A model generated the notes under the pieces. That model ran no database searches and was not told the origin of the DNA. It worked only from the letters and a program-made list of their open reading frames with translations. Positions 10,709 to 29,711 of a DNA stretch of 64,000 bases are shown here, piece after piece (the first letter of the stretch is position 1; each line of letters begins with the position of its first letter). The position numbers and the translations under genes were made by a program. The stretch covers positions 310,001-374,000 of the forward strand of contig NZ_SZPZ01000004.1 of the NCBI RefSeq assembly GCF_005233875.1. Direction: 5' to 3'. The DNA comes from Kribbella jiaozuonensis. GTDB lineage: Bacteria > Actinomycetota > Actinomycetes > Propionibacteriales > Kribbellaceae.

Positions 10709-10753
10709 TCACCCCCGCCGGATGAACCAGCGGCGCCGTTTCGGGGCTTGACT
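10709..10753 (+). promoter_or_regulatory. Regulon palindrome (TCAYCC-N5-GGRTGA) upstream of K+ channel
   Basis: TCACCCCCGCCGGATGA at 10709-10725 matches the 12 fixed positions of the shared motif. At the usual 22-nt distance the hexamer is TTGACT (10748-10753), a weak -10. A transcript starting about 7 nt later would begin at or next to the GTG at 10760. It lies between divergent genes and may also serve the DUF2252 gene at 10619. Confidence 0.65.
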
Positions 10754-10759
10754 GGAACT

Positions 10760-11299
10760 GTGAAAGCCGCCGACGTCGACTACCACCAGCTCCCCAAGCG
10801 GACCCGGCGCCGCCTTGCCACGATGTCGCTGCTGCGTTCCCTGGGCGTGTCCGTGGTGATCGTCGCCGGCTACTTCGTCCTGCCGATGCGTATCGACGGC
10901 ACCTTCGCCGTCGTCGCCCTGGTCGGCGGGCTTGCCGTCGTGGGGCTGCTGCTGGCCCGGCAGATCCTCGACATCTCCCGGTCCCCCTACCCGCGGATCA
11001 GGGCGATCGGTGCGTTGGCGACGTCAGTGCCCTTGTTCCTCGCGATCTTCAGTACGACGTACGTCCTGATGGCGCGTGCCCAACCGGCGAACTTCTCCGA
11101 GCCGTTGAGCCGGCTGGATGCGGCGTACTACACCGTGACCGTCTTCGCGACCGTCGGCTTCGGCGACATCACGGCCGTGTCGGCGGCGGCGCGCGCGGTC
11201 GTCACCGTGCAGATGCTCGGTGATCTCGTCATGGTCGGCCTGGTCGCGCGGACCCTCATCGGCGCCGTCCAGCACAATCTCAGTCAGCGGGGGGAATGA
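10760..11299 (+). CDS. Two-pore-segment potassium channel family protein
   Basis: This is about 179 residues, with hydrophobic spans near 27-42, 48-66 and 82-104, then a pore helix and the K+ selectivity filter TVGFGD at 131-136 and a final span. It lacks a cytoplasmic RCK domain. The start is uncertain: GTG 10760 fits a leaderless transcript from the upstream palindrome promoter, and ATG 10823 (MSLLRSLG) would remove 21 residues. Its last 20 nt overlap the convergent MFS gene. It probably adjusts membrane potential or K+ balance under stress. Confidence 0.82.
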   Translation: MKAADVDYHQLPKRTRRRLATMSLLRSLGVSVVIVAGYFVLPMRIDGTFAVVALVGGLAVVGLLLARQILDISRSPYPRIRAIGALATSVPLFLAIFSTTYVLMARAQPANFSEPLSRLDAAYYTVTVFATVGFGDITAVSAAARAVVTVQMLGDLVMVGLVARTLIGAVQHNLSQRGE

Positions 11300-12860
11300 C
11301 GGGCGGGTCCTCCAGGCGCACCATCCGGAAGGAGTTCACCAACCCGGCCAGAGCGGCGAGGATCGGGATGCCGAGCGCCACTTGCAGGGCGAGCGGTCTG
11401 GCGTCGGTGTTGATCCGGATGATCTCGTCGCGAACGTCCTGCGGTTGCTTGGCGAGCTGTTCCTCGAGCCCGGTGTTGGTCATCACTTCCGCGTCGTGTT
11501 CCAGCGCCGTGGCGACCTGTTCCTGCTGGGCCGGCTGCAGGACGGTGCTCGCCTCCGCCTTGTTGGTGAAGGTGAAGGACAACGTCGCCAGCATGATGGC
11601 GCCGGCGAAGGCCAGTCCGAAAGACAGGCCGAACGAGCCCGCCGCCGAGTTCACGCCGGCCGCCTCGCTGACACGTTCCTCGGAGATCGGTCCCAGGGTG
11701 TAGTTGTTCAGTTGCGATACCAGGAGGCCGAGCCCGGTTCCCACGACGATCAGCGGCGCGACCAGGGCCCAGCCGGAGTCGGCCCGGGGCACGATCGGGA
11801 TCAGGATCACGAGACCGGCGGTCACGAGCGCGAAACCCCACCTGACGATCTTGCCCGGGCGTCGTCCACCGGCCTTCTTCTCGGCGATGATCGCCGCGCC
11901 GAACATGCTGAGCGAGAGCGGCGCCAGGCTGAGGCCTGCCTCCATCGAGTTGTACTCGAGCACCATCTGCAGGTAGATCGGCAGGGCTATCATGCTGCCG
12001 CCCAGCGCGATCTGCTGGAGCATCTGCTGGGAGATGCCGAGCCGGTAGACGGCGGAGCTGAACAGAGCGGGATCGATGAGCGTCGGCTCACCCCGGCGCT
12101 TGCGTCGCACCAGCCAGTAGATGAACGAGCCGAGTGCGACCAGGCCGATGGCCAGGATCAGGCCGACGTACTCGCCGCCTTCCTGCCAGACCAGGATGCT
12201 CAGGACGATGCCACCCATGCCGAGCACGGACAGGATCGCTCCGACGACGTCCACTCGCCGCGAGCCCGTGTACGGCACGTCGTGGACGAGTCCTTGGCCG
12301 GAGACAACGACCACGATCACCGCGACCTCGAGCAGGAACCCCACCCGCCAGGACAGGTAGGTGGTGATGAAACCTCCGAGCAGCGGACCGACCGCGGCAG
12401 CCATCGCAGCCGAGGCCCCCACCAAGGCGTACGCCTTCGTCTGCTCCGCTCCTTCGAAGTTGCCGTGGATCAGCGACTGCATCGCAGGCAGCAGTAGCGA
12501 CGCTCCGATGCCACCCACCAAGGCCCAGAAGATGATGATCGCGGTCAGGCTCTGGGCCAGTGCCATCGCGCTGGCCCCGATCGCGTAGCCGAGCAGTCCC
12601 AGCAGGTAGGCGCGCTTGCGCCCGATCAGATCGCCGACCTTGCTCCCGATCAGGATGAACGCCGCCGAGACCAGGGCCTCGAGCGCGATCGCGGACTGTA
12701 CGCCGCTCACCGTCGTGTCGAGATCGCGGACCACCGAGGAGATCGAGACGTTCATCAGCGACGTGTCGACGACCAGCACGAACATCGCCATCGCGAGCAG
12801 CAGGGCGAGCCGTGGGTTGGCCTTCGTACCGGCGGGGACCCCGCTCGCCTCGTCGCTCAT
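11280..12860 (-). CDS. MFS transporter, DHA2-like (14-span) drug exporter
   Basis: This 526-residue major facilitator begins LALLLAMAMFVLVVDTSLMNVSISSVVRDL, with the Asp of span 1 typical of DHA2 exporters. GSKVGDLIGRKRAYLLG is the loop 2-3 signature and GPLLGGFITTYLSWR is motif C-like. The size and spacing suggest 14 spans and proton-driven export; the substrate is unknown. It starts 8 nt after the SHOCT gene, so it is third in an operon led by the DUF6325 gene and its palindrome promoter. Confidence 0.88.
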   Translation of the reverse strand: MSDEASGVPAGTKANPRLALLLAMAMFVLVVDTSLMNVSISSVVRDLDTTVSGVQSAIALEALVSAAFILIGSKVGDLIGRKRAYLLGLLGYAIGASAMALAQSLTAIIIFWALVGGIGASLLLPAMQSLIHGNFEGAEQTKAYALVGASAAMAAAVGPLLGGFITTYLSWRVGFLLEVAVIVVVVSGQGLVHDVPYTGSRRVDVVGAILSVLGMGGIVLSILVWQEGGEYVGLILAIGLVALGSFIYWLVRRKRRGEPTLIDPALFSSAVYRLGISQQMLQQIALGGSMIALPIYLQMVLEYNSMEAGLSLAPLSLSMFGAAIIAEKKAGGRRPGKIVRWGFALVTAGLVILIPIVPRADSGWALVAPLIVVGTGLGLLVSQLNNYTLGPISEERVSEAAGVNSAAGSFGLSFGLAFAGAIMLATLSFTFTNKAEASTVLQPAQQEQVATALEHDAEVMTNTGLEEQLAKQPQDVRDEIIRINTDARPLALQVALGIPILAALAGLVNSFRMVRLEDPPVIPPAD

Positions 12861-12868
12861 GGCGTCCC

Positions 12869-13186
12869 TCAGCCTGCGAGGATCTTGGCTTTCTGTGCCT
12901 CGAACTCGGCGTCGGTGAGAACCCCCGACTGCTTCAGTTCACCCAGCGTCTTGAGCTGGTCCAACCGGTCGGAGGTGGCCGACGGCGGCGGCGCAACCGG
13001 CGCCGCAGCTACCGGCGCGGGCGGCGGCGCGGTTTGCTCCGCGTAGGCCTCGTCGCGTTTGGCCGCGGTCTCGGCGTCGCGCTGGGCGAACTTGGCGTCC
13101 TGCCTGCGCTGTATCCGGCCGTGGACGGCGGTCGCGGTCCCCGCGACGGCGGCGGTTCTCGCTATTCCTCGCAACAGTCCTGGCAT
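12869..13186 (-). CDS. SHOCT domain protein
   Basis: This 105-residue protein has a basic N-terminus, a Pro/Ala-rich linker (about 52-68), and a C-terminal SHOCT motif, DRLDQLKTLGELKQSGVLTD followed by AEFEAQKAKILAG. SHOCT segments are short helical hairpins often placed at protein ends to mediate oligomer contacts. It lies between DUF6325 and the MFS pump in one operon. No enzymatic role can be assigned. Confidence 0.85.
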   Translation of the reverse strand: MPGLLRGIARTAAVAGTATAVHGRIQRRQDAKFAQRDAETAAKRDEAYAEQTAPPPAPVAAAPVAPPPSATSDRLDQLKTLGELKQSGVLTDAEFEAQKAKILAG

Positions 13187-13196: not shown

Positions 13197-13643
13197 TTAG
13201 GTCGTCGCTTCCAGGGATTCCAGCGCGTCGAGCACTTCCATCACGTCCTGAGCGGGGATGCGCCCGCCACCGATCAGCGTGCCGCCGGACTCGAGCGCCG
13301 CGGCAACGAACGGGATCGCCCAGGTGTTTTCGTAGACGATCAGCGCTGCGAGTGTTCCCGGCTGCATCGCGTCGGCCACCTCGAGCAGGTCGTCCTCGGC
13401 CAGGATCCCGGAGCGGGCACCGGCGAGATCCGCGAAGCCGCCGGCCTGACCGGTGCCTTCGGCGAGGTCCACCCAGTAGACGGAGCCGTTGGCGTCCTTG
13501 CCGACCACCATCACGTCGTAGACCTGAACGATGCCGCGTTCGACCAGGTTCACGAGCTCCTCCGAGGCTCGACCCGTGAGCCTGTTGCCGGTGAACTCGA
13601 TGAGTATGTAGTCGATGGGTCCGTGAACCTCTGCCTCCGGCAT
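13197..13643 (-). CDS. DUF6325 family protein
   Basis: This 148-residue protein (GPIDYILIEFTGNRLTGR, then IVQVYDVMVVGKDANG) matches the DUF6325 group often seen beside SHOCT genes in actinobacteria. It is hydrophilic except for one moderately hydrophobic stretch near TLAALIVYENTWAIPFV. It is the first gene after the palindrome promoter at 13682-13726, with an untranslated leader of about 30 nt carrying GGAGGGTGGAG. Confidence 0.8.
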   Translation of the reverse strand: MPEAEVHGPIDYILIEFTGNRLTGRASEELVNLVERGIVQVYDVMVVGKDANGSVYWVDLAEGTGQAGGFADLAGARSGILAEDDLLEVADAMQPGTLAALIVYENTWAIPFVAAALESGGTLIGGGRIPAQDVMEVLDALESLEATT

Positions 13644-13681: not shown

Positions 13682-13726
13682 ACGATGCCGCGACCTCCCG
13701 GCGGCGTCATCACCCCGGCGGGATGA
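13682..13726 (-). promoter_or_regulatory. Regulon palindrome and -10 for DUF6325-SHOCT-MFS operon
   Basis: TCACCCCGGCGGGATGA at 13710-13726 matches all 12 fixed positions. Exactly 22 nt downstream on the minus strand is the hexamer CATCGT (13687-13682), within GGCATCGTG. The same hexamer at the same distance occurs at 20338-20382 and 29667-29711, the strongest internal evidence that this is a shared promoter type. Confidence 0.8.
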
Positions 13727-13728
13727 GC

Positions 13729-14829
13729 TCAACCGGCACGATCGCCGCCGGCCGCCGCGCGGTCGGGGTGGGCGACGCGATAGTCGGCGATCGGGCGGTA
13801 CCGGTCGTAGAGCGTCGCGAGAATGCTGAACAGGAAGATGAAGAAGAGCGCGTCCACCAGGTGCAGTTGGCCCGGTCCCCTCGACAGCAGCACGTCGGCG
13901 AGCAGCACCAGTACGACGTTCACCGCGAAGACGATCCCGAACGAGACCGCCGCGGAGTTCCACGAGTAGCCGCGCCTGGCCGCCCACAACCCGATCGCGG
14001 CGTTGATCACCACGAAGACCGCGATCCCGAGGAACATCTGGACGCCGCTGGCGTCGACGCCAGGCAGCACCTGGCCGTAGATCACGCTGATCAGGCCGAT
14101 CAGGAAGATCTTCTCCAACGTCGTCAGGTCGAAGACCTTCCGGTGCGCGGCCTGGTACGCGGCGCGCTCGGACGCCTCGTCGATACCCTCCGGCAACGGA
14201 TCGGCACGGAACCTCCACGACCAGTCGGCCGGACTCAGCCGCGGACGCACGAAGAAGTACAGCACCGCGAGCAGCACGAGGATCGCGACGACGAGGGTCG
14301 GCAGGAACCATGAGACGTCCCGGATCGTGTCGGTCAGGTCGAGCTTGGCGATGTGGATCCAGTACTCCTGCGGCAGTTTGACGAAGATCCAGATCGCAGC
14401 GGCGACGATCACCCAGAACTTGAAGGTGTACCGCAGCGGATTCCGCCGGGTCCGCACCGATTCGTACGCGATGAAGAAGTATTCGAACGTGTTCGGGAAC
14501 AGCAACAGCAGCAGCCGGATACCGGTGGCCTCGAACGCGACGACGCCGATCTGCCGGAAGAAGAACAGGAAGCGGCTGATCTTGACCGCCCCCGGATGGG
14601 TCCAGTTCCGCAGGCTCGCCAGGTAGGCGATGGACAGGTAGAAGACGTCCATCGCCTTGTCGTAGCTCTGGTAGAACGGCGGGTCGAATCCGAACGTCTG
14701 GAAGATCGTCTGGTCGACACCGTCGAGCAGCAGGCAGGCGATGATGGCCGGCAACGGGAACATCGGGATCAGCAGCGGCAGCGCGAAGCGCGCGAGGACC
14801 ACACTCCAGAACACGACCTCGACACTCAT
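13729..14829 (-). CDS. Multi-span membrane protein of unknown function
   Basis: This 366-residue protein has about nine hydrophobic spans, e.g. ARFALPLLIPMFPLPAIIA, FLPTLVVAILVLLAVLYFF and FVVINAAIGLWAA, and an aromatic-rich segment DPPFYQSYDKAMDVFYLS. I do not recognise the family. It begins 1 nt after the phospholipase D stop and is last in the phosphodiesterase-PLD operon, so a role with phospholipid turnover in the membrane is a reasonable guess only. Confidence 0.75.
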   Translation of the reverse strand: MSVEVVFWSVVLARFALPLLIPMFPLPAIIACLLLDGVDQTIFQTFGFDPPFYQSYDKAMDVFYLSIAYLASLRNWTHPGAVKISRFLFFFRQIGVVAFEATGIRLLLLLFPNTFEYFFIAYESVRTRRNPLRYTFKFWVIVAAAIWIFVKLPQEYWIHIAKLDLTDTIRDVSWFLPTLVVAILVLLAVLYFFVRPRLSPADWSWRFRADPLPEGIDEASERAAYQAAHRKVFDLTTLEKIFLIGLISVIYGQVLPGVDASGVQMFLGIAVFVVINAAIGLWAARRGYSWNSAAVSFGIVFAVNVVLVLLADVLLSRGPGQLHLVDALFFIFLFSILATLYDRYRPIADYRVAHPDRAAAGGDRAG

Positions 14830-14830
14830 G

Positions 14831-16426
14831 TCAGAACTCCCCACGCCGACGCATCCGGCGAGGCCTGCCGTCGGGGTCGTAGACGAGCCGGTACAACGGT
14901 TCCGCCCAGAAAGCCTGGAAACGGCTGATCGGTTGCGTGTGGTGCGGACGGATCTGCCCCGGTGGCCGCTCACCTGTTCGGCCGGCGGCGTACCAGGCAT
15001 CCAGGTCCGCCGCGGTCTGTTGCCACAGCCCGAAGCCCGTCTCGAGGTCGAGCTTGGCCAGGCGGTCACGCGGCATACCGAGGTGCTCCGACCACACCTC
15101 CAGCCGCAGCTCCCGGGCCAGCCGACGGGTGCCCTCGGCAACCAGATCGCGGTCTTCGAGGGTCCCGTCCAGAACGGCGCAGGTGAGTTCGCTGTCGCAG
15201 GTCCAGGACCGCCGGTTGAAGTTGTCCGATCCGCAGGTGAACCACACGTCGTCGACGACGCAGATCTTCGCGTGCACGTAGATCGGAGCGCCCGCGCGGT
15301 TCTCCAGGTTGTAGATCGCGACCCGCTCGGGCGCGGTCCCCCGCAACATCCGTACGGCGCGCAGTTGGCCGAAGCGGGCCGGCGGGCCACTCAGTGGCCC
15401 GTCGGCATCGGGGTACCGCGGTACGACGATGATCACGTGCAACCCGGGCCACCGCTCGAGGGCGTCGTGGATCCCCTCCGCGATCAGCTCCGACCACAGA
15501 TACTGGTCCTCCAGATAGATCAGCTTCCGCGCATTGCCGAACGCCTTCAGGTACGCCCGCGCGATGCTCCGCTCCCCCAGCGGCGCGAACGGATAGCCAG
15601 GACGCTTGTGGGCATACGTTCGCAACACCTGTACGGCGTGCGGCCCGGCCGGCGGCGGATCCGGAAACGACTCCGGCAGCGACTTCGGATGGCGCGGCAT
15701 CCGGGCCATCCGTTGCACGACCATCCGGTACGGCGTCCGGCGGTCGAGCGGGTGGCCGTCGTCCCAGCGCTCGACGAAGGTCCGGAGAAGATCACCGACG
15801 ACCGGTCCGCGGATCTCGAGCGCCGCGTCGTGCCACGGGGTCTGGTCGCCGTACCTGCGGTCCATCGGTGCCTGCTGAGGATCGCCCAGGTGCTCGCCGT
15901 CGTCACGGCGCTGGTGGGACAGGTCGATACCGCCGACGAACGCGACGTCCAGCTCCGGCCAGCCCTTGCGCCGGATCACGAACAGCTTCTGGTGATGCGA
16001 CGCCAGCCGCCGGACGCGCTGGTCGAGCAGTACCTCGGCGCCCGCCTCGTTGAGCTTCGTCCCCAGGCGCCGGTTCTCCCGCGCATTGAACTGCAGATGG
16101 TCGGAGTGGGATCGCCACAGCAGTGCCCTGATCTCGATCCCCGACCGGGCCAGATCGGCGAGCACAGTGCCGATCGTCGGGCCCTCGGGCAGCAGCTTCT
16201 CGTCCGCGTCACCACGCCAGTCGGTGAAATAGACCCGGTCGCCGGCGTGCAGCGCGCACAGCTCCTCGTACAGCCGGCGGAAGTACGTCGCACCGTGGAT
16301 CAGCGGCCGGACCAGGTTGCCGTCGACCCAGGATCCGTCCACGTCCCCGACCCGGTCGATGTCCGTACCGGGATTGCCGCGCTCGTCCGGTCGCAGGAAC
16401 CATTTCCCGGCTGTGTGGTCGGTCAT
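14831..16426 (-). CDS. Phospholipase D family protein
   Basis: This 531-residue protein has two PLD half-sites. The second is canonical: HAKICVVDDVWFTCGSDNF with the following RRS gives HxKx4D and GSxNxxxRS. The first reads ASHHQKLFVIRRKG...DVAFVGGIDL: it keeps His and Lys but has Arg where Asp is usual. No signal peptide is evident, so it may be cytosolic or membrane-associated through its neighbours. ATG 16426 overlaps the phosphodiesterase stop (ATGA), and a further promoter seems to lie within the end of that gene (16445-16489). Confidence 0.9.
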   Translation of the reverse strand: MTDHTAGKWFLRPDERGNPGTDIDRVGDVDGSWVDGNLVRPLIHGATYFRRLYEELCALHAGDRVYFTDWRGDADEKLLPEGPTIGTVLADLARSGIEIRALLWRSHSDHLQFNARENRRLGTKLNEAGAEVLLDQRVRRLASHHQKLFVIRRKGWPELDVAFVGGIDLSHQRRDDGEHLGDPQQAPMDRRYGDQTPWHDAALEIRGPVVGDLLRTFVERWDDGHPLDRRTPYRMVVQRMARMPRHPKSLPESFPDPPPAGPHAVQVLRTYAHKRPGYPFAPLGERSIARAYLKAFGNARKLIYLEDQYLWSELIAEGIHDALERWPGLHVIIVVPRYPDADGPLSGPPARFGQLRAVRMLRGTAPERVAIYNLENRAGAPIYVHAKICVVDDVWFTCGSDNFNRRSWTCDSELTCAVLDGTLEDRDLVAEGTRRLARELRLEVWSEHLGMPRDRLAKLDLETGFGLWQQTAADLDAWYAAGRTGERPPGQIRPHHTQPISRFQAFWAEPLYRLVYDPDGRPRRMRRRGEF

Positions 16427-18492
16427 CGTGACACCCCTCGGTCGAGTGTGGCCTCCTGACCTCCCGGGTTGCTCATGCTCCCCGGGTGAATCCCGCTACG
16501 TTGTCCGTGTTGTTCGAGGTACCCGACGAGCACGCGATGGAGCTCGTCGGCGCCACGGATCGGCTGGTCCGGGATCACCAGGTCGGGCGGGGCGAGGAGC
16601 AACGCCCGGCCCTGCCAGCCGCCCAGTCCACCGTGGCTGCCGACCAGTCCCTCGAACGCGGAGACCTCGCCGGTGTCGTGGTCGACCGAGCTGTTGACGT
16701 ACAGGTCAGGTGCCTCAGGCATCGACACCGCTCTCAGCAGGTCCGCCGGGATCAACGGCCCGAAGGCCGCCAGCGGGTCGTCGCCTGTCACCTTCGAGTC
16801 GGCCAGCCGGTGGACACCCGAAGGTCCGACGACCAGCGGTCCGTGCTCGTCGCTCATCACCGCGACGAAGGTGATCCCATCGTGGTTCACCAACCCCGGG
16901 ATGAGGGCCGGCCAGCGACTGGTGAGCTCCTCCAGCGTCAGCCGCTGCTCCTCGGCGGCGTACACCAGGCCGAGGTTGCCCGACCCCAGGACGACCAGGT
17001 CCGAATTGCTGGTGACTGCCGGCGGTGCGGACCGGCGCTGCACCCGGCCGGCGGCGTTGTGGGCGACCCGTCCCGTGCCGGTATCGCCGCCGGCGAGGTC
17101 GGCGAGCAGACCGTTCAGGCGCCCCCAGCCCTCGACCGGCTGCTCGACCGCTTCGACGCGTGCCGCGGTCAGCTGCGAGCAGACTGCAGCGAGATCGACT
17201 CCGAATCGGTCGGCGAAGATCGCGCCCTGGGACTGGCCGTGGTCGGACAGGACGACCAGCCGGTACGGGCGCGGCGCGGCCTCGGCAACCGCCTCCAGGC
17301 ACGCGAGGACGTGATCGAGCCGGTCGAGCGCGGCCAGCGACTCCGGCCGCAGGGCGCCGGCGTGATGAGCCACCTCGTCGTAGTCGACATAGTCGACGTA
17401 CACGGACCGCGTGCCGCGGATCATCTCCTCGGCCACCAGTGCGGTGTTGAGATCCCGCAGTACGACGTTCGTCACCGCCCGCATGCCGGCGAAGAGCCAG
17501 CCACGGTGTCCCCGCGGACGTACGTCGCGCCGTCGTTGCCGCCGGGCCTCGAACCGCTCCCGGCCGATCTCTGCGATCGCCCCGAACAGACTGCCCGCGA
17601 ACCCGTCCGGCCTGGCCAGATACCAGGCGACCCGACGACGGGTGTCGGCCGAGCCACGGCTGATCTCGAGCTTGCTCATCGTCAGCACCGATCTCTCGGC
17701 GTCACCGCTGAAGAGGTTCGAGATACTCACACCGCCGTCGGCCAGGAGACCTCGACCGTCGGACGCGCGGCGCTCGATCTCGGCGGCGTCGGCGGCCCGG
17801 TTGGCGACCAAGACCCGCCCGAGCGCCCGGTCGTACCAACGGAAAGCGGGCACGCCGTCGATGCGGCCGTGCAGGATCCCCAGTTGACTGGCCGGCGTGG
17901 TCGGCGGCAGCACCGGCGTCCACTCCACCAGGCGGTAGCCGCCATCACGGATCCAGCGCCCGACAGTGGGCAGAGTGGCGGCCAGCAATTGCCAGCGCAG
18001 TACGGGGAACGGCACGCCGTCCAGCTGAACGAAGATCACGCCAGGAACCTCGGGATCGTCGACCGTTGTCCGCCGCCGCCTGGTTCGGCGGACAAGCGCC
18101 GCGGTAAAGGCTTCCGGCGTACCGGAGGTGCAGAGCCAGGCGACGATCGTCGTCGCGGCCGCGGCGATCCATGCCGCGATCAGCACGACCCAGAACGAGT
18201 CCGCCTCGACGCCCGGGATAAGCGACAGCGCCGCAGCGAGGATCACGGCCTGGCCGACTATTGCCAGCAGCAGTACCGCGAGCCATCCGATCGCCGCACT
18301 CGCGACGACGAGCAGCGGGCGGACCAGCGCGCCGACCAGCAACGCGGCCGCGGCCGCGGCGAGCAGTTGCGGGAACGACGAGAACCGCAGGCCCGGCAGC
18401 ACGGCCGCGGCGAGCGCCAGGGCCAGGACCGAGGTGACGTAGGTGGCCGCGATCCGGCCGAGATCGCCGGTACGGACCAGCGGCGTGGACAC
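16423..18492 (-). CDS. Membrane-anchored alkaline-phosphatase-superfamily phosphodiesterase
   Basis: This 689-residue fusion has four N-terminal spans (about 10-120) resembling the holin family 4 / YvlD-type membrane module, then a nucleotide pyrophosphatase/phosphodiesterase-like domain. Metal and nucleophile landmarks are VIFVQLDGV, TTPASQLGILHG (likely Thr nucleophile), VDYDEVAHHAG, LSDHGQSQG and GSHGGLGGW. The catalytic domain probably faces the membrane surface and hydrolyses phosphodiesters or lipid head groups. It is first in an operon with PLD and a membrane protein, downstream of a palindrome promoter at 18594-18639. Confidence 0.85.
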   Translation of the reverse strand: MSTPLVRTGDLGRIAATYVTSVLALALAAAVLPGLRFSSFPQLLAAAAAALLVGALVRPLLVVASAAIGWLAVLLLAIVGQAVILAAALSLIPGVEADSFWVVLIAAWIAAAATTIVAWLCTSGTPEAFTAALVRRTRRRRTTVDDPEVPGVIFVQLDGVPFPVLRWQLLAATLPTVGRWIRDGGYRLVEWTPVLPPTTPASQLGILHGRIDGVPAFRWYDRALGRVLVANRAADAAEIERRASDGRGLLADGGVSISNLFSGDAERSVLTMSKLEISRGSADTRRRVAWYLARPDGFAGSLFGAIAEIGRERFEARRQRRRDVRPRGHRGWLFAGMRAVTNVVLRDLNTALVAEEMIRGTRSVYVDYVDYDEVAHHAGALRPESLAALDRLDHVLACLEAVAEAAPRPYRLVVLSDHGQSQGAIFADRFGVDLAAVCSQLTAARVEAVEQPVEGWGRLNGLLADLAGGDTGTGRVAHNAAGRVQRRSAPPAVTSNSDLVVLGSGNLGLVYAAEEQRLTLEELTSRWPALIPGLVNHDGITFVAVMSDEHGPLVVGPSGVHRLADSKVTGDDPLAAFGPLIPADLLRAVSMPEAPDLYVNSSVDHDTGEVSAFEGLVGSHGGLGGWQGRALLLAPPDLVIPDQPIRGADELHRVLVGYLEQHGQRSGIHPGSMSNPGGQEATLDRGVSR
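16445..16489 (-). promoter_or_regulatory. Internal regulon palindrome and -10 for the PLD gene
   Basis: TCATGCTCCCCGGGTGA at 16473-16489 matches 11 of 12 positions, and CACACT (16450-16445) lies at the usual 22-nt distance. The site is inside the 3' end of the phosphodiesterase gene, 47 nt before the PLD start. The resulting short leader carries GAGGGGTG. It would let PLD and the next gene be made independently of the first gene. Confidence 0.55.
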
Positions 18493-18593: not shown

Positions 18594-18639
18594 ACAGTAG
18601 GGCCGCACGGAGCGGCTGCGCGTCACCCTTGGCGGACGA
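18594..18639 (-). promoter_or_regulatory. Regulon palindrome and -10 for phosphodiesterase-PLD operon
   Basis: TCACCCTTGGCGGACGA at 18623-18639 matches 11 of 12 positions. On the minus strand TACTGT (18599-18594), a good TAnnnT hexamer, follows at 23 nt. It is one of two adjacent palindromes in the 236-bp divergent gap at 18493-18728, each placed for one direction. Confidence 0.65.
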
Positions 18640-18648: not shown

Positions 18649-18693
18649 TCATCCCGGGCGGGTGATGCCCGCCAGGCCGATCTGAGCGACTTT
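18649..18693 (+). promoter_or_regulatory. Regulon palindrome and -10 for AI-2E exporter gene
   Basis: TCATCCCGGGCGGGTGA at 18649-18665 matches all 12 fixed positions, and GACTTT (18688-18693) lies 22 nt downstream. The gene starts at 18729 after a leader with GGGAGGGAGG. Confidence 0.7.
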
Positions 18694-22173: not shown

Positions 22174-22646
22174 CGGACCTGCGGGTAACCCGGACCGGTA
22201 CGGCGGGTCCGCATCGCCGACCGCGCCGCACCGCTCACCAACGTGCCGATGGCGATCCCGACCGCGAGGTTGATCACCGCGGTCGCAACCTTCGACGACG
22301 TCGAGCCGTTGGTGACGAACGGCGCGAAGGCCGCGGCGAGCGTCGCCAGAGCGATGATCCACCCGAAGAACCGCAGCGGCCGGGGCGTGGAGATCACCAA
22401 CAGGTGCATGAGCCCGGTGGCCAGCAACGCCGCGAGCGCGCACCACAGCGCGTACTGCGGTGTGTCCGCGTCTCCCCAGGTGCCCTCGCCTTCGGGTGCG
22501 AGGACAGGTACGTCGAAGACGCCGCGAGCGACCAGGATGCCGACCACCGCGATCAAGCCGGCAACGACGGCCGTGGCCGCGCCTCCGGCCCACAACCGGC
22601 CGGCGTCCACCGCGTGCGCACCGCCCTGCGTGGGTTGAACTGTCAT
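22167..22646 (-). CDS. DUF6069-type membrane protein
   Basis: This 159-residue protein has four hydrophobic spans (near 22-42, 68-87, 92-112 and 122-143), with a Pro/Gln-rich N-terminus and basic C-terminus. It matches the DUF6069 group of small actinobacterial membrane proteins by its AGGAATAVVAGLIAVVGILV opening and overall layout. ATG 22646 overlaps the PAP2 stop (ATGA), so it is third in the DAG kinase operon. Function unknown. Confidence 0.7.
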   Translation of the reverse strand: MTVQPTQGGAHAVDAGRLWAGGAATAVVAGLIAVVGILVARGVFDVPVLAPEGEGTWGDADTPQYALWCALAALLATGLMHLLVISTPRPLRFFGWIIALATLAAAFAPFVTNGSTSSKVATAVINLAVGIAIGTLVSGAARSAMRTRRTGPGYPQVRY

Positions 22647-23209
22647 GACGTCTGCTCCTTGTGTTCCGCCTGAAGGGCCAGCCGGCCGGCCAATTTCCCG
22701 AACAGCGCTCCGACGGTCGCCCCGACCAGGACGTCACTCGGGTAGTGCACGCCCGTATAGACCCGAGAGAACGCGACGACCGACGCTGCGACCCGCAGGA
22801 TCGGTCGAAGCGCGGGCAGGACCTCTCCGACCGCAACGGCGAAGGCAGCAGCGGACGCCGAGTGCCCGGACGGAAACGACCCCGAGGCGGGCATCCGCAC
22901 CCACCGCTGCACGGGTACGCCGAGGCGTACGCGGTTGGGCCGACGACGTACACGTGCCGCCTTCTTCATCGGCTGGTTCACCACCAGGGACGCGGCCCCG
23001 ATCGCCGCGACCCCTGCGGCCGCAGCCCGCCGACCCCGTGGGCCGCCGACCAGGGTGAGTACACCGGCAATCAGGAACCATGGCTTGGAGAAGTCGGCGA
23101 AGTCCGACACCCGCCGCAGCGGCTCGTCCAGAACCGGCGTGGACAGCCTCGCCACCGACCGGTACAGCGCACGGTCGTAACGAGCCAGACGACGCGGCGA
23201 GGCGGTCAC
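22643..23209 (-). CDS. PAP2 superfamily phosphatase (paralogue 1)
   Basis: This 188-residue lipid phosphatase has KKAARVRRRPNR (C1), SFPSGHSASAAAFA (C2) and SRVYTGVHYPSDVLVG (C3), so all catalytic residues are present. GTG 23209 overlaps the DAG kinase stop (GTGA). It lies directly after a DAG kinase in one operon, so the two can phosphorylate and dephosphorylate the same lipid class (diacylglycerol/phosphatidate or a polyprenyl analogue). Confidence 0.9.
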   Translation of the reverse strand: MTASPRRLARYDRALYRSVARLSTPVLDEPLRRVSDFADFSKPWFLIAGVLTLVGGPRGRRAAAAGVAAIGAASLVVNQPMKKAARVRRRPNRVRLGVPVQRWVRMPASGSFPSGHSASAAAFAVAVGEVLPALRPILRVAASVVAFSRVYTGVHYPSDVLVGATVGALFGKLAGRLALQAEHKEQTS

Positions 23210-24510
23210 CCAGCGGTCCCCGTCGCCACGTGTTCCCGGTCCCGGCCCAGGACGATGTGCACCAGCTGGACGAGCCCGGCGCGCAGCCCCTCGGGAACGG
23301 TCGCCGACGGCGATGAACCCGGGTGCTGGTGGGCGATCCGGACGCGAAGAACTCCCGGCCGGATCACGAACCGCAGCGGCGCGTCGAGGACGAGCGCCTC
23401 TCCGTCGACGCCGGCCGGCAGCGGGCGATCGGCCTCCACCTCGAACGTCGGGGCGGTCCACTCCCGCCACGGACGCTGAAGGCGGCGTTGATCGCCGTCC
23501 GCGGGCGCCCCCAGGACGGTGATACCGAGCAGACCGTCATCGATACGCGGACGCGTGCCGGATCCGATCGCGCGACCGAGGCGGTAGCGGTTGTTGGACA
23601 CGAGTACGGCGGCACCGCCGCGATGATCGTGACCGCCCGGACCGGTCCAGCGCATGTCGAGATCGCTGCCACTCTCGCCCAGCGCATCGGGCACCGTGTC
23701 GAGGATGGTCCGCATCTTGGCATCGCGATAGCCGCTGCGTTGGACCGCTTCGGCGTACAGGCCAAGTGACACGTTGTTCACGAACACGCGGCCGTTGACC
23801 TCGGCGAGGTCGACCAATCGCTCACCGCCGTCGACGAAGGCGTCCAGCGCGCCGACCACGTCGTCCCGGTCGACTCCGAGATCGAGCGCGAAGTGGTTGC
23901 GGGTGCCGGCCGGAACGCAGGCGTACGGCAGCGAGAGTTCAGCGGCGACCGAGGCAACGATCGCCTGCGAGCCGTCCCCGCCGGCCATCGCGAGCCCGTC
24001 GGCGCCGCGCGCGACCGCTCCGCGGACGAGGGTTTCGAGATCGTCACCGAGCTTCAGCTCGATCGGCTCGATACCGCGGTCGCGCGCTTCCTTGGCCAAG
24101 GCGAACCGTTCCGCCTTTCCGCCGCCCGATTTCGGGTTGTAGAACAGCACTGCATGCTGCGGTGCTGTTGCAGGCGGCAGATCCACATGCGACGTAAAGG
24201 CGGCGCGAGTCGCGGCCAGAGTGACCAGGAGCCCCACCAGGACCAGCAGGTCCACGCCGAACTTCCCACCCACGACGATGAAGATCACCACACCGGCGAG
24301 CGCCACACCGGCCACGTACAAACCGGCCAGGCGCGCTATCCCCCGTCGCAACGCGCCGTACCAGGCCGCCACCGCAGCGATCACCACACAGGCCAGCACA
24401 CCGAGCCCACGCGGGAACTGATTCACAGAATTCACCACGCCGAGCACGAGCGTCGCCGCCCCCACCACCAGCGCCACAACCGCCGCAACCCGCCGCCTCA
24501 TGGAACCCAT
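23206..24510 (-). CDS. Membrane-bound diacylglycerol kinase family protein
   Basis: This is about 434 residues: four N-terminal spans (to about residue 108), then a DAGK/LCB5-type domain with LFYNPKSGGGKAERF, the nucleotide loop MAGGDGSQAIVASVA and VPAGTRNHFALDLGVD. It phosphorylates a lipid alcohol at the membrane. Two starts are possible. ATG 24510 has GGAGG 9 nt upstream. ATG 24501 lies exactly where a leaderless transcript from the CAGGAT hexamer of the upstream palindrome promoter would begin. It is first in an operon with PAP2 and DUF6069. Confidence 0.9.
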   Translation of the reverse strand: MGSMRRRVAAVVALVVGAATLVLGVVNSVNQFPRGLGVLACVVIAAVAAWYGALRRGIARLAGLYVAGVALAGVVIFIVVGGKFGVDLLVLVGLLVTLAATRAAFTSHVDLPPATAPQHAVLFYNPKSGGGKAERFALAKEARDRGIEPIELKLGDDLETLVRGAVARGADGLAMAGGDGSQAIVASVAAELSLPYACVPAGTRNHFALDLGVDRDDVVGALDAFVDGGERLVDLAEVNGRVFVNNVSLGLYAEAVQRSGYRDAKMRTILDTVPDALGESGSDLDMRWTGPGGHDHRGGAAVLVSNNRYRLGRAIGSGTRPRIDDGLLGITVLGAPADGDQRRLQRPWREWTAPTFEVEADRPLPAGVDGEALVLDAPLRFVIRPGVLRVRIAHQHPGSSPSATVPEGLRAGLVQLVHIVLGRDREHVATGTAG

Positions 24511-24553
24511 CCTGTGCGGCCTCCACCGCCACTACATCCCACAGCCGGGATGA
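24509..24553 (-). promoter_or_regulatory. Regulon palindrome (weaker) toward DAG kinase
   Basis: TCCCACAGCCGGGATGA at 24537-24553 matches 10 of 12 positions; the GGATGA half is perfect. On the minus strand CAGGAT (24514-24509) lies at 22 nt and overlaps the ATG at 24510, which argues that translation may begin at ATG 24501. Confidence 0.5.
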
Positions 24554-24581
24554 GGTGCTCCCCCGAACGCGATGTCACGGT
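24537..24581 (+). promoter_or_regulatory. Same palindrome toward Na+/H+ antiporter, with -10
   Basis: Read on the plus strand the site at 24537-24553 is followed after 22 nt by CACGGT (24576-24581). The antiporter GTG lies at 24615 with GGAGG before it. Confidence 0.55.
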
Positions 24582-24614
24582 GCAGGCAGTCCGATACACG
24601 ACGGAGGCGGCGCG

Positions 24615-25904
24615 GTGACCGAAGCCACGTTCGCAGTGCTCGCGCTGCTCGTCCTGGCCTGGGCGGTGACCTCGGACCTCCTGGCCCGGGCCAACATCAC
24701 CGGTCCGCTGGTTTTCACCGCTGCCGGCTTCGTGCTGGGCAACCCGGACTGGGGACCCCTCAAGGTGCACGTCGAGGCCCCATCGGTCCATCTGCTGGCC
24801 GAGCTGACCCTTGCGATGCTGTTGTTCTCGGACGCCTCCAGAGTCAACCTCTCCGGACTGAAACGGGACATCAACCTGCCCGTGCGTCTGCTCGGCATCG
24901 GACTTCCGCTCTCGGTGATTATCGGCTCACTCCTGGCGGCCTGGCTCTTCGACGACTTCACCTGGGCCCTCGCGGGCTTCGTCGGCGCCACGCTGGCTCC
25001 GACCGACGCGGCGCTCAGCGCCCAGGTCGTCAACGACCAACGGATACCCATGCGGCTGCGTCGCGCACTGAACGTGGAGAGCGGACTCAACGACGGCATC
25101 GTGACACCGATCGTCACGTTCACGCTCGCGGTTGCCGCGGGACAACTCGGTACTGCGCAGGAGGGCGACGCCTCCACAGACGGGAGCGGGGCGCTACTCG
25201 AGCTAGCGATCGGCCTCGGCGTCGGCGTAGTGGTCGGGCTCGGAAGCGGCAGGCTCCTGACCTACGGTTCCCGCCGCGACTGGGTCAGCACCGGCGCGGG
25301 ACGGCTCGGCACGTTCGCCGGCGCGCTCAGCAGCTTCGCCCTGGCCGTCGCCTTGAGCGGCAACGGCTTCATCGCGGCGTTCGTGGCCGGCATCGCCTTC
25401 CGGGCGGGACTCGACGAGGACGTCATCGACGCGGACAACGTCATCGAGTTGCCGGAACTCGTCGGCGAGATCCTGGCGTTCGCGGTCTGGTTCCTGTTCG
25501 GCGCCGCGCTGGTGCCCTTCTTCGTCCACAACTTCGACGTGCCGCTCCTCGCGTACGCCGTACTGAGCCTGACCGCGGTCCGCATGGTTCCGGTCGCCCT
25601 GGCGCTGCTGGGGAAGGGTTTGGACAGCCAGACCGTCCTCTTCGTCGGATGGTTCGGGCCTCGTGGTCTGGCATCCGTCGTCTTCGCTTTGCTGGCGATC
25701 GAAGAACTCGGCGAGAACGAGGTGGTGGAACGCGCCGTCGCCGCCGTCGCTCTCACCGTGCTGCTGAGCGTCGTACTGCACGGAATCTCGGCCGGGCCGC
25801 TCGGACGTCGTTACGTCAGGCTCGAACAAGCAGAGGACAGCCCGGGTCCCGGACCTCGGTCACGACGCTCCCCACATCACCACCTCAATAGCGACCTGCG
25901 CTGA
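24615..25904 (+). CDS. Cation:proton antiporter (CPA1, NhaP-like)
   Basis: This 429-residue antiporter has 11-13 spans and the CPA1 landmarks ELTLAMLLFSDASRVN, GATLAPTDAALSAQVVND, LNVESGLNDGIVTP (the ND ion-binding pair) and FVGWFGPRGLASVVFALLA. The GTG start at 24615 has GGAGGCGGCGCG just upstream. It expels Na+ or K+ in exchange for H+, and fits a pH or salt-stress role beside a K+ channel and SulP transporter under the same palindrome. It ends 6 nt before the convergent DUF7144 gene. Confidence 0.92.
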   Translation: MTEATFAVLALLVLAWAVTSDLLARANITGPLVFTAAGFVLGNPDWGPLKVHVEAPSVHLLAELTLAMLLFSDASRVNLSGLKRDINLPVRLLGIGLPLSVIIGSLLAAWLFDDFTWALAGFVGATLAPTDAALSAQVVNDQRIPMRLRRALNVESGLNDGIVTPIVTFTLAVAAGQLGTAQEGDASTDGSGALLELAIGLGVGVVVGLGSGRLLTYGSRRDWVSTGAGRLGTFAGALSSFALAVALSGNGFIAAFVAGIAFRAGLDEDVIDADNVIELPELVGEILAFAVWFLFGAALVPFFVHNFDVPLLAYAVLSLTAVRMVPVALALLGKGLDSQTVLFVGWFGPRGLASVVFALLAIEELGENEVVERAVAAVALTVLLSVVLHGISAGPLGRRYVRLEQAEDSPGPGPRSRRSPHHHLNSDLR

Positions 25905-25910: not shown

Positions 25911-26390
25911 TCAGTGCGGAGGCCTGCGCCGATCGGCGGTGGTGAGCTGAGCTTCCTCGTCTCTGGTCCATGGTGCTTCGTCGATCCCTCCGAGCTGGTC
26001 GCGTACGTCGGACCACCGGGCAGTCAGGGCGTACAGCACGACGACGTCCAGCACGATCATCAGCACCGACCAGACCGGGTAGGCACCGAGCCAGAGGATC
26101 TGTACCACGGCGTGCAGGCTGACGAGCAGGATCGCCGTGATCCTGGCCCACGTCCGCGCCGCGATCAGACCGGCGCCGACGGGCATCAACAGCAGTCCGA
26201 AGATCAGCAGGATCCATCCCCAGCCGGTCACGTCCACGAGGACGAGCTTGCTCGGCGTGACCACCAGACGCTCGTCGGAGAACAGCGCGACAAGCCCCTC
26301 GAAGACGTTGACCAGTCCGATCACCATCAGCACCGCACCGGCGAACACCACGACGCCGGTCATGGCCGCCCCGACCTTTTTCGCAGCCAT
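25911..26390 (-). CDS. DUF7144-type four-span membrane protein (paralogue 2)
   Basis: This 159-residue protein has four spans and the conserved FEGLVALFSDERLVV and VTGWGWILLIFGLLLMPVGAG, matching the protein at 19894-20307. A hydrophilic C-terminal tail of about 35 residues is unique to this copy. ATG 26390 follows GAGAGGAGATACAG. It is driven by a perfect-match palindrome at 26480-26496. Confidence 0.85.
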   Translation of the reverse strand: MAAKKVGAAMTGVVVFAGAVLMVIGLVNVFEGLVALFSDERLVVTPSKLVLVDVTGWGWILLIFGLLLMPVGAGLIAARTWARITAILLVSLHAVVQILWLGAYPVWSVLMIVLDVVVLYALTARWSDVRDQLGGIDEAPWTRDEEAQLTTADRRRPPH

Positions 26391-26450
26391 CTCTGTATCT
26401 CCTCTCGCTGCGTCGGCCGACCGCCGGAGTCGGCGACGGCTCGCACCTGG

Positions 26451-26496
26451 ATGCTGACTCTCGCCACCCGGCAGGCACCTCACCCCGGGAGGATGA
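26451..26496 (-). promoter_or_regulatory. Regulon palindrome and -10 for second DUF7144 gene
   Basis: TCACCCCGGGAGGATGA at 26480-26496 matches all 12 positions. CAGCAT (26456-26451) lies 23 nt downstream on the minus strand. A second full-match palindrome (26539-26555) faces the other way in the same gap. Confidence 0.68.
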
Positions 26497-26538
26497 GTCC
26501 CGGCTACTCGCTGTCGCCGTACGTCCCGATCGGTCGGT

Positions 26539-26583
26539 TCATCCGCCGGGGGTGAGGTTCCGTGCGCCGGCGGCAGCGACGAT
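26539..26583 (+). promoter_or_regulatory. Regulon palindrome and -10 for DUF4239 gene
   Basis: TCATCCGCCGGGGGTGA at 26539-26555 matches all 12 positions, and GACGAT (26578-26583) lies 22 nt downstream. The gene begins at 26613 with GAGGAGG before it. Confidence 0.7.
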
Positions 26584-26612
26584 CGAGCCTGGCCACAGGC
26601 GAGGAGGCGCGG

Positions 26613-27431
26613 ATGAACCTCGTCTGGGCTGCTCTGGTCAGTGTCCTCGCGACCGCCGTCACCGTCACGGCGATGCTCCTCGTGCGCAGGCGGGCGCCGC
26701 AGGGCGGCCACTTCAGCGATGGTGACCGCGCCTCGGGAGTCTTCGGTGTGCTCGCCACCGGATTCTCCGTGCTGCTCGGTTTCATCATCTTCCTGTCGTT
26801 CAGCTCGTACGACCAGTCACGAACCGGCGCCGAGACCGAGGCGACGATCGTGGCGCAACAGGTCCAAACGGCCCAGTTCCTGCCGGCCAGGACCGAGCTC
26901 ACCGGCGAGCTGATCTGCTACGCACGGTCCGTGGCCGGGGTCGAGTGGGATGCGCTGGACACCGGCACGCTCGGGAACTCCGTCAATCCGTGGGGTGTCG
27001 AGATGTACCGGACGATCTCGGCCGTCGCCCCGCGGACGCCGGTCGAGCAGTCGGCGTACGACCGCTGGATGGACCAGACCGCCGCACGGGAACAGGCCCG
27101 CATCGACCGCGTGCACGGGGCGGAGGGGATCATCCCGGCGCCGGTGTGGCTGGTCCTGTCGGTCATCTCCGTGGTGATCTTCGGGTACCTGCTGTTCTTC
27201 GCCGACCCGGCCGAGGGCGCGGTGACGCAGGGCCTGCTGATGGGCAGCGTGACGATGGTCATCACGCTCTTGCTGTTCCTGCTCGTCTTCTTCGACCATC
27301 CGCACGGCGACGGGGTCGGCAGGCTGCAGCCGACCGCCATGGTGCGAACCATCGACCAGATCGATGCCTCGCTCAAGCTGGTCGGGCTCCACGTCACCCC
27401 TCCGTGTGACGAGCACGGCAGCCGACGCTGA
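26613..27431 (+). CDS. DUF4239 (bestrophin-like) membrane protein
   Basis: This 272-residue protein has two N-terminal spans (about 3-24 and 48-68), a soluble middle region with Cys in ELICYARSVAGVEW, and two C-terminal spans (IPAPVWLVLSVISVVIFGY and GSVTMVITLLLFLLVFF) followed by DHPHGDGVGRLQP. This is the DUF4239 layout, for which a bestrophin-like channel role has been suggested. ATG 26613 is preceded by GAGGAGG. No enzyme motif is seen. Confidence 0.82.
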   Translation: MNLVWAALVSVLATAVTVTAMLLVRRRAPQGGHFSDGDRASGVFGVLATGFSVLLGFIIFLSFSSYDQSRTGAETEATIVAQQVQTAQFLPARTELTGELICYARSVAGVEWDALDTGTLGNSVNPWGVEMYRTISAVAPRTPVEQSAYDRWMDQTAAREQARIDRVHGAEGIIPAPVWLVLSVISVVIFGYLLFFADPAEGAVTQGLLMGSVTMVITLLLFLLVFFDHPHGDGVGRLQPTAMVRTIDQIDASLKLVGLHVTPPCDEHGSRR

Positions 27432-27445: not shown

Positions 27446-27490
27446 TCGTTCAGCAGGGATGATGCGGCGGTCAGGGTGCTGGTGAATCGT
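27446..27490 (+). promoter_or_regulatory. Regulon palindrome (weaker) and -10 for second DUF2252 gene
   Basis: TCGTTCAGCAGGGATGA at 27446-27462 matches 10 of 12 positions; the GGATGA half is perfect. AATCGT (27485-27490) lies exactly 22 nt downstream. The match would be weak alone, but position and spacing agree with the stronger sites. Confidence 0.5.
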
Positions 27491-27538
27491 CGGCTGAGTA
27501 CACGCAACCCAGGGGTGGGAAGAGAAGGGCGGCCGATC

Positions 27539-29032
27539 ATGTCGACGACAGTTGAACATCTGACTCTGGACGAGCGGAGCGCACGCGGCGTGCAGGCTCG
27601 CACCCGCGCGATGCCGGACAGTCACGCCGGGTGGAAGCCCGCCTCGGACCGGCCGGACCCGGTAGCACTCATCGAGGAGCAGAATCTCCGGCGGGACGCG
27701 GACCTGGTTCCGGTCCGGCACGGCCGGATGATGGCCTCGCCGTTCACCTTCTATCGCGGTGCCGCCAGGATCATGGCCGCCGACCTGGCCGACACGCCCA
27801 CCTCCGGTCTCCAGGTCCAGCTGTGCGGGGACGCCCACCTGTCGAACTTCGGCGCGTTCGCCTCGCCGGAACGAAATCTGGTGTTCGACATCAACGACTT
27901 CGACGAGACCCTTCCGGGCCCGTTCGAGTACGACGTCAAGCGGCTGGCCGCGAGTCTCATGGTCGCGGCCCAGAACAACGGCTGCTCGGAGTCGGACGCT
28001 CGTGCGATCACGAAGGCCTGTGTCACCTCCTACCGGGAGTCGATGGCCGAGTTCGCCGGCCTCAAGACTCTCGACGTGTGGTACGCCCACCTTGCCGAGG
28101 ACCAGATCAAGCAGTCGATGGCCGCGTTCCTGTCCGGGGCCGACGGCAACGGCAAGGGTTCCAAGAAGGGCAAGCGCAAGGGCAATCGCGAGGAGGACGG
28201 CATCAGCGGGCTGACGCCGAAGCAGGCGAAACAGGCCCAGAAGCGGTTCGAGAAGAACGCACTGAAGACGCACTCCCGGACCAGCGACCAGGCCCTGTCC
28301 AAGCTCGGCGAAGAGGTCGACGGCCGCTACCGGATCGTCAGTGTCCCGCCGGTGATCGTCCCCGTGCGCGACCTGCACACGACGTACGGCGTTGAGCCGG
28401 GAGAACTCGAGCAAACCGTCTTCGGTCTGTTCCGGGACTACCGTTCCACCCTCCGGCTCGACCTCCGCCAGCTGCTGCAGCGCTTCGAGGTCGTCGACTG
28501 GGCCCGGAAGGTCGTCGGTGTCGGCAGTGTCGGAACGCGCGCGTTCATCGTCCTCCTGCAGGGCCGTGACGCCGGCGATCCACTGTTCCTCCAGGTGAAG
28601 GAAGCCACCAGGTCGGTGCTCGAAGGAACCTTGCGCAAGAGCGCGTTCAAGCAATCGGGCGAGCGGGTGGTCCAGGGCCAGCGAATGATGCAGGCCAACA
28701 GCGACATCTTCCTGGGCTGGTCCAAAGGGGTTCAGGCCGACCGCTACTTCTACTGGCGCCAACTGCGCGACATGAAGGGCTCGGCGCTGGTGGAGCTGAT
28801 GCCACCTGCGGCGCTGGCCTGGTACGGCCGCACGTGCGGGTGGACGCTGGCCCGTGCACACGCACGAACCGGCGACCCGGTGTCGATCTCGGCGTACCTC
28901 GGCGACGACGACGGCTTCGACAAGTCGATCACTGACTTCTCCGAACGCTATGCGGCCCAGAACGACCAGGACTTCGCCGATTTCGCCAAGGCCATCGCCT
29001 CGAACCGGATCGAGGCCATCCCGGACGTCTGA
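27539..29032 (+). CDS. DUF2252 family protein (paralogue 2)
   Basis: This 497-residue paralogue of the 9117-10619 protein has RHGRMMASPFTFYRG, LCGDAHLSNFGAF, LVFDINDFDETLPGP and VGVGSVGTRAFIVLLQGRD. It differs by a Lys/Gly-rich insertion in mid-protein (near 200-215), where the first copy has a shorter loop. The APH-like GDAHxxN / DINDFDE arrangement hints at a kinase fold. ATG 27539 follows AGAGAAGGGCGG. Confidence 0.88.
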   Translation: MSTTVEHLTLDERSARGVQARTRAMPDSHAGWKPASDRPDPVALIEEQNLRRDADLVPVRHGRMMASPFTFYRGAARIMAADLADTPTSGLQVQLCGDAHLSNFGAFASPERNLVFDINDFDETLPGPFEYDVKRLAASLMVAAQNNGCSESDARAITKACVTSYRESMAEFAGLKTLDVWYAHLAEDQIKQSMAAFLSGADGNGKGSKKGKRKGNREEDGISGLTPKQAKQAQKRFEKNALKTHSRTSDQALSKLGEEVDGRYRIVSVPPVIVPVRDLHTTYGVEPGELEQTVFGLFRDYRSTLRLDLRQLLQRFEVVDWARKVVGVGSVGTRAFIVLLQGRDAGDPLFLQVKEATRSVLEGTLRKSAFKQSGERVVQGQRMMQANSDIFLGWSKGVQADRYFYWRQLRDMKGSALVELMPPAALAWYGRTCGWTLARAHARTGDPVSISAYLGDDDGFDKSITDFSERYAAQNDQDFADFAKAIASNRIEAIPDV

Positions 29033-29112
29033 CCACCCGGGTCGACAGCTCGGCCGGCGTGCGGATCCCGGAGCACGTCCGGTCGAGCTGGGGCTTCCCG
29101 GGTCAGCCCGGA

Positions 29113-29613
29113 CTACTTGGCCGCGTTCTTGACCTCGGTCGCACTGTCCGCGTCGACCTCGTGCTTGGTCACCTTCTCCGCGTGCGACAGCGCCTTGTCG
29201 ACGTCGGTGACCCAGGTTTCCTCGAACAGCGCCACGATGCCCGAGCTGTTCGCCGGCAAGGAGTCCTCGACGTCGGCCTTGATCGCCGCCTTCTCCCGGT
29301 GGGACTTCAGACCACCGATGCCGAGACCCGCTCCCGCACCGACCGCCGCACCGGCCAGCAGGCTCGGTGGGAAGATCAGGCCGATGACCGCACCGCCGAC
29401 TGCACCCCAGGCAGCGCCCTTCCGGGCCGTGTGGAAGTCGTCGTCGACCATGATCTTGCCGTCGGCGCCGCGGCTGATGAGGACCAGCCCGTCGACCTTG
29501 ATCAGATCGTCCGAAGCGGCTTGCTTGATCGTGTCCCAATCGACGCGCGCCGCCGCCGCATCGGTGTACGCGGCGATGTACAGGGCGACGGGAGCCTTCA
29601 TGTCAGATCCCAC
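29113..29613 (-). CDS. DUF1269-type glycine-zipper membrane protein
   Basis: This 166-residue protein has an N-terminal alpha/beta segment (VALYIAAYTDAAAARVDW), a Gly/Ala-rich hydrophobic stretch (GAAWGAVGGAVIGLIFPPSL, then AGAAVGAGAGLGIGG), and a charged C-terminus. This is the DUF1269 pattern. GTG 29613 is preceded by AAAGGAGA at good spacing; ATG 29601 is the alternative. It lies downstream of the palindrome at 29695-29711. Confidence 0.8.
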   Translation of the reverse strand: MGSDMKAPVALYIAAYTDAAAARVDWDTIKQAASDDLIKVDGLVLISRGADGKIMVDDDFHTARKGAAWGAVGGAVIGLIFPPSLLAGAAVGAGAGLGIGGLKSHREKAAIKADVEDSLPANSSGIVALFEETWVTDVDKALSHAEKVTKHEVDADSATEVKNAAK

Positions 29614-29666
29614 GGGTCTCTCCTTTGATCACGCGACCGCGGCCGCACCCGAGTCCTAGGCTCCTC

Positions 29667-29711
29667 ACGATGCCTCCGGCGCCGAGGTGCGGCGTCACCC
29701 CGGGCGGACTA
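29667..29711 (-). promoter_or_regulatory. Regulon palindrome (half strong) and -10 for DUF1269 gene
   Basis: TCACCCCGGGCGGACTA at 29695-29711 has a perfect TCACCC half and a degenerate other half (10 of 12). CATCGT (29672-29667), within GGCATCGTG, lies exactly 22 nt downstream on the minus strand, as at 13682 and 20338. Confidence 0.65.

Follow-up and report, generated by a model that had tools for sequence, protein, structure and literature searches.

Genes and palindromes of the island

The window, which is the whole 64-kb stretch of Kribbella jiaozuonensis DNA analysed here, contains an island of genes with the palindrome TCAYCC-N5-GGRTGA at their promoters. The genes and palindromes are shown in Table 1. 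The original prediction had listed eleven palindromes, and rescanning of the window recovered all eleven (11/11) at the positions given, with the same grades of match: five had no mismatch, three had one and three had two. Five exact matches compare with 0.017 expected under a first-order Markov model of the window. One extra site with two mismatches was located at 12642, within a coding region and inside the 10.7-29.7 kb block. No site with two or fewer mismatches was detected elsewhere in the 64-kb window.

Table 1. Genes, palindromes and the island junction in the window. Coordinates are nucleotides of the window; C1 and C5 are other contigs of the same genome.
Feature	Position	Strand	Mismatches	Context and remarks	Hexamer (distance)
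DUF2252 gene	9117..10712	-		Pfam E 2e-146
Palindrome	10709..10725		0	TCACCCCCGCCGGATGA; upstream of DUF2252 gene 9117-10712 (true start downstream of site)	TTGGGT, weak
MFS transporter	11280..12860	-
SHOCT-domain protein	12869..13186	-
DUF6325	13197..13643	-
Palindrome	13710..13726		0	promoter of DUF6325-SHOCT-MFS genes	CATCGT (22 nt)
Membrane protein, orthologue of u360 of relatives	13729..14830 (start approximate)	-		70% identity to C1 paralogue; DNA 82-90% identical to other species
Junction	13745..13757			relatives have a 5.8-kb segment at this point (LAL, u104, RDD, u301); segment on C5 here
PLD-like protein	14831..16426	-
4-TM holin-like + phosphodiesterase/pyrophosphatase protein	16423..18492	-
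Palindrome	16473..16489		1	promoter of phospholipase-D-like gene 14831-16426	CACACT (22 nt)
Palindrome	18623..18639		1	promoter of holin-like/phosphodiesterase gene 16423-18492	TACTGT (23 nt)
Palindrome	18649..18665		0	promoter of AI-2E-family transporter gene 18729-19877	GACTTT (22 nt)
AI-2E-family transporter	18729..19877	+
DUF7144	19894..20364	-
Palindrome	20366..20382		1	between DUF7144 gene (-) and SulP gene (+)	both sides (22 nt)
SulP-family permease	20458..22173	+
DUF6069, PAP2, diacylglycerol-kinase-like genes	22167..24510	-
Palindrome	24537..24553		2	between DAGK gene (-) and Na+/H+ exchanger gene (+)	both sides (22 nt)
Na+/H+ exchanger	24555..25904	+
DUF7144	25911..26711 (ORF as listed; true start before 26480)	-
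Palindrome	26480..26496		0	promoter of second DUF7144 gene (domain in ORF 25911-26711, -)	CAGCAT (23 nt)
Palindrome	26539..26555		0	promoter of bestrophin-like gene 26562-27431	GACGAT (22 nt)
Bestrophin-like channel	26562..27431	+
Palindrome	27446..27462		2	promoter of second DUF2252 gene 27476-29032	AATCGT (22 nt)
DUF2252 (second)	27476..29032	+
DUF1269/glycine-zipper protein	29113..29613	-
Palindrome	29695..29711		2	promoter of DUF1269 gene 29113-29613	CATCGT (22 nt)

At 10 of the 11 sites a gene-side hexamer of the form NAnnnT begins at a distance of 22 or 23 nt, as the original prediction had it; the site at 10709, carrying TTGGGT, is the sole exception. The sequence GGCATCGTG, said to be common to the sites at 13710, 20366 and 29695, is present there at one offset. 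At 20366 and 24537, which had been read as working in both directions, a hexamer was found on either side.

Distribution of the motif in the genome and promoter geometry

The spaced motif was enriched in the genome scan that had been proposed as a check. In the 8.66-Mb genome, exact motifs numbered 20 against 0 in the reversed control, and motifs with at most one mismatch numbered 88 against 7. When the hexamer was required and up to two mismatches were allowed, 129 sites were found against 12 in the control. The claim that no palindrome lies outside the block therefore holds for the window and fails for the genome. Beyond the window, motifs cluster on contig C1 (2.03-2.06 Mb), contig C5 (1.24-1.29 Mb) and contig C8 (220-223 kb). 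Instead of forming a 19-kb block, as had been proposed, the motif sites are scattered over the genome in several clusters. The genes at these clusters belong largely to the families of the window, with three more DUF7144 genes, a second DUF1269, DUF6325 and AI-2E gene and another SHOCT protein. A chloride channel, a GH15 trehalase-like enzyme, a sulfatase, an amino acid permease and a prolidase-type peptidase are also encoded there.

The distance between palindrome and hexamer was examined at 162 sites with at most one mismatch in Kribbella loci. At 135 of them NAnnnT occurred 22-23 nt away on one or both sides; other offsets averaged 14.6 such sites, with 27 as the highest count. On the 91 gene-facing sides of the Kribbella loci, 47 hexamers lay 22 nt away and 18 lay 23 nt away, with about 2 at each other offset. 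Loci of another family, f3, gave 33 at 22 nt and 24 at 23 nt among 122 sides. G was preferred two places 5′ of the hexamer, a bias that would resemble extended -10 promoters. At the fourth position of the motif, C and T were about equally frequent.

Identical site sequences were observed at a constant offset in C1 (~2.20-2.36 Mb) and C5 (1-160 kb). The ends of these contigs appear to overlap, as one stretch left unjoined in the assembly, and the overlap may contribute to the contamination estimate of 6.6%.

A candidate regulator on contig C5

The original prediction had noted that the regulator is not obviously in the block, which is right for this genome. The gene for a MalT-like protein of 866 aa, a LAL (large LuxR-family ATPase), is located outside the window, at C5:1286059-1288656. 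The protein contains a STAND ATPase, a MalT-type TPR region (TPR_MalT) and a C-terminal GerE HTH, and its Walker A sequence, APAGFGKT, is invariant. E. coli MalT is the top-scoring PDB entry for it (E 5e-34), and with 206 bits it fell far short of the NCBIfam MalT equivalog cut-off of 537. The LAL gene shares a divergent promoter with a 104-aa gene, u104 (C5, locus L020:18871-19185), and an exact palindrome lies between the two. A site of the exact pattern is found in the LAL gene's own promoter in 11 Kribbella genomes and in one further genome, G210. K. rubisoli and K. capetownensis each have the LAL gene in two copies.

The number of exact sites per Kribbella genome had two peaks: 12 genomes held 17-34 and 25 held 0-5. 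An orthologue of the LAL (at least 62% identity) was present in 11 of the 12 motif-rich genomes, the query genome counted, and in none of the 25 motif-poor ones (Fisher P 1.4e-8, uncorrected for descent). LALs of 31-34% identity also occur in some motif-poor Kribbella genomes, so it is only the close orthologue that separates the two groups cleanly. The motif-rich genome without a close orthologue, G032, has a LAL that is only 34% identical, with sites near it on both sides, and this protein falls in the same subfamily as the 866-aa LAL in the tree. We also observed in G032 (loci L056 and L074) diverged LALs, the same gene families in rearranged order and 19 exact sites. G032 suggests a parallel lineage of the same regulator-motif system.

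Judged from these sequence comparisons, the palindrome is very probably the operator of a MalT-type STAND-LuxR activator encoded by the 866-aa LAL gene. The original prediction that one activator controls the ion, phospholipid and DUF genes is supported as regards a class-II-type activator over the -35 of many units, and not as regards its DosR-like nature.

The island is split in this genome

In two relatives (loci L062 and L070) the island is continuous. It consists of the counterpart of window 9.1-13.745 kb, a 5.8-kb segment with u104, LAL, RDD and u301, the counterpart of window 13.757-18.5 kb and a further piece. When L062 was aligned, its positions 3615-8278 and 14083-18844 matched the window, and 8301-14041 matched C5 of our genome. 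The split involves positions 13745-13757 and 18514-18518 of the window and the stretch 13104-19383 of L020 on C5. Both extra pieces, including the one that carries the LAL gene in relatives, lie together on C5 here, and the window and C5 share out the island with almost no overlap. The split may reflect relocation, or duplication with complementary loss.

Regulator and motif beyond Kribbella

In f3, probably a Nocardioidaceae-like family, the median number of exact sites was 10 in LAL-positive genomes and 1 in the others. A follow-up with a broader profile used 18 motif-rich f3 genomes that were LAL-negative in the tight search and 18 without an exact site. LAL was found in 17 of the 18 motif-rich and 0 of the 18 motif-free genomes (hypergeometric, ~2e-9), and u104 showed the same counts (17/18 and 0/18). 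In family f2, u104 was present in 6/6 versus 0/3. Several of the f3 follow-up matches end three quarters of the way along the profile, and these may be proteins without the DNA-binding domain. LAL-like proteins of ~700-780 aa were also observed, some in tandem with a full-length LAL (L189 6108-8255, L190 11577-13811, L191 11163-13307).

The class-wide sample covered 247 genomes. Of 20 loci centred on its best LAL matches, 19 have at least one exact site in ~20 kb, and many also carry u104, DUF6325, DUF7144, SHOCT, DUF2252, MFS or GH15 genes. Exact sites occurred there at 1.1 per 10 kb. Around distant named MalT-like proteins, mostly from other phyla, two were found in 1.27 Mb of flanks (0.016 per 10 kb). 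Such near-absence led us to reject the motif as a general property of LALs. A tree of 100 LALs was built with FastTree and has some long branches; on it, 9 changes suffice to account for the label "site within 1.5 kb", versus 33.5 when labels are shuffled, and 43 of 48 site-labelled rows fall within one group of 50 rows. No site was found near L295, a LAL of the motif-linked subfamily, and a LAL search at 1e-60 gave no match in G380, a genome with 9 sites. Relatives of the LAL that share this site are widespread in the class, judging, beyond the order, from the sampled loci.

The core of u104 comprises ~75 aa, "YEIRVAGAVP...DQSALYGLLARLRALGIEVVEVRR". It had no match in Pfam or NCBIfam. Across many loci we found u104 almost always next to the gene of the MalT-like regulator, and in Kribbella the two have a promoter site in common.

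Comparison with known systems

A region of 51 genes in Actinoplanes sp. SE50/110 was described by Droste et al. (2020); it carries the motif TCATCC-5nt-GGATGA, and at 17 mapped starts the distance to the 3′ end of the motif is 34.4 ± 1.0 nt (PMC7567727). Deletion of the MalT-like ACSP50_3915 lowers, and its overexpression raises, the expression of ~40 genes of the region, and a second MalT-like gene lies within it (PMC7567727). The region is up on maltose versus glucose, with the maltose genes unaffected (PMC7567727). That paper pointed out the match of the motif to the E. coli MalT box GGGGA(T/G)GAGG, with the core GGA(T/G)GA, and reported regions of this type in Micromonosporaceae (PMC7567727). 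The Kribbella and Actinoplanes lines of evidence are independent, because the paper was found after the regulator had already been singled out.

As in the ACSP50_3915 regulon, the palindrome lies upstream of many transcription units and the site covers the -35; 22-23 nt plus the hexamer and the usual gap agrees with 34.4 nt from the start. In both systems a MalT-like LuxR regulator, here the probable activator, is encoded within or alongside the regulon, which includes many transport and uncharacterised genes, and in both an amino acid permease and aminopeptidase-P/prolidase-type genes stand beside sites, here at L016. In contrast to Actinoplanes, the regulon here is distributed over several contigs with the regulator outside the main island, most of its genes encode membrane proteins of the ion, lipid or DUF kind, and the fourth motif position is C or T about equally. 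The hosts are Kribbella and other families, whereas the paper named Micromonosporaceae only. With E. coli MalT (box GGGGAKGAGG) the LAL shares the order STAND ATPase, TPR sensor and LuxR HTH, the half-site core GGATGA and, as proposed here, activation from the -35 region. It differs in the inverted pair of half-sites with a 5-nt gap and in scoring 206 versus 537 bits. No mal genes were recognised among the targets here.

Alternative explanations

The original prediction had drawn a parallel with DevR/DosR. A response regulator of this type, such as the LuxR-type protein encoded at 36114-36779 with the kinase at 39215-40726, would be close to the block and has the same type of DNA-binding domain as the LAL; DosR/DevR likewise acts at the -35, near -42/-43 of many promoters. 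However, among Kribbella genomes its orthologue was present in 4 of the 12 that are rich in the motif and in 6 of the 25 that are poor in it (Fisher P 0.70), and no motif sites lie near it in the window. DosR belongs to another protein family, and its box is TTSGGGACTWWAGTCCCSAA; the sites here, TCAYCC-N5-GGRTGA, are unlike it and contain no GGGACT-type palindrome. We consider it most improbable that this protein binds the palindromes, and it was rejected for want of a phyletic match with the motif; the factor would instead be of the MalT-type STAND-LuxR kind. A literature search on DosR with DUF2252, and on LuxR regulons of Kribbella, returned nothing relevant.

A second LAL of 930 aa beside the C5 island (C5:1291298-1294087), or another of the genome's many LALs, might be the main activator. 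A 1-mismatch site just upstream of the 930-aa LAL gene and the second MalT-like gene of the Actinoplanes region speak for it. Against this, relatives of the 930-aa LAL are found in 37 of 38 genomes of the genus, whatever their motif content, and it falls outside the motif-linked subfamily in the tree. The loci of these relatives, the other LAL family of Kribbella, contained 0 exact sites in 63 kb. The 930-aa LAL was rejected on its nearly genus-wide distribution and the absence of exact sites, and this alternative is very unlikely. Equally slight is the chance that the palindromes are operators of a repressor competing with RNA polymerase at the -35: a site covering the -35 would fit a repressor too, but the strict spacing of 22-23 nt from the -10 is what an activator would be expected to show, and the published Actinoplanes relative activates. 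That the palindromes are chance matches or coding-sequence repeats, for which no support was found, is practically negligible given the control counts (20 versus 0 reversed), the fixed distance to the -10 and the conserved footprint. The MalT-type LAL remains the candidate that we prefer.

Proposed mechanism and significance

Each palindrome consists of two inverted MalT core half-sites (GGRTGA). LAL would bind over the -35, ~43 bp upstream of the start, and recruit RNA polymerase where a promoter has its -10 and lacks a good -35, acting also at its own promoter through the site it has in common with u104. By analogy, the signal read by the TPR sensor region may be a sugar or a related metabolite. 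Activated LAL would then switch on some 20 transcription units or more, with products for membrane transport, ion homeostasis and the turnover of phospholipids as well as several uncharacterised small membrane proteins. For Kribbella we infer the binding by LAL, the activation, the signal and the physiological role. The label "stress regulon" rests on annotation, and the sole measured input, in a relative, is the carbon source.

LAL and u104 could form a conserved two-part sensor-switch across much of the Actinomycetes, governing a common envelope and ion-balance programme without a recognised role (DUF2252, DUF7144, DUF6325, SHOCT and DUF1269). Here u104 would act as a ligand sensor or anti-activator, comparable to MalY, Aes and MalK for MalT. 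We put this forward tentatively and regard it as rather doubtful.

This kind of system is already known and was described in Actinoplanes. What the present analysis adds is the Kribbella regulator, the gene content, the occurrence in other families and a small, conserved protein that accompanies the regulator. Such a regulon had been reported a single time, from Micromonosporaceae, and several more families turn out to have it. The DUF2252, DUF7144, DUF6325, SHOCT, DUF1269 and bestrophin-like families of actinobacteria, so far unexplained, are linked through one regulator and one recognisable DNA site, and their joint role can be tested through a single gene.
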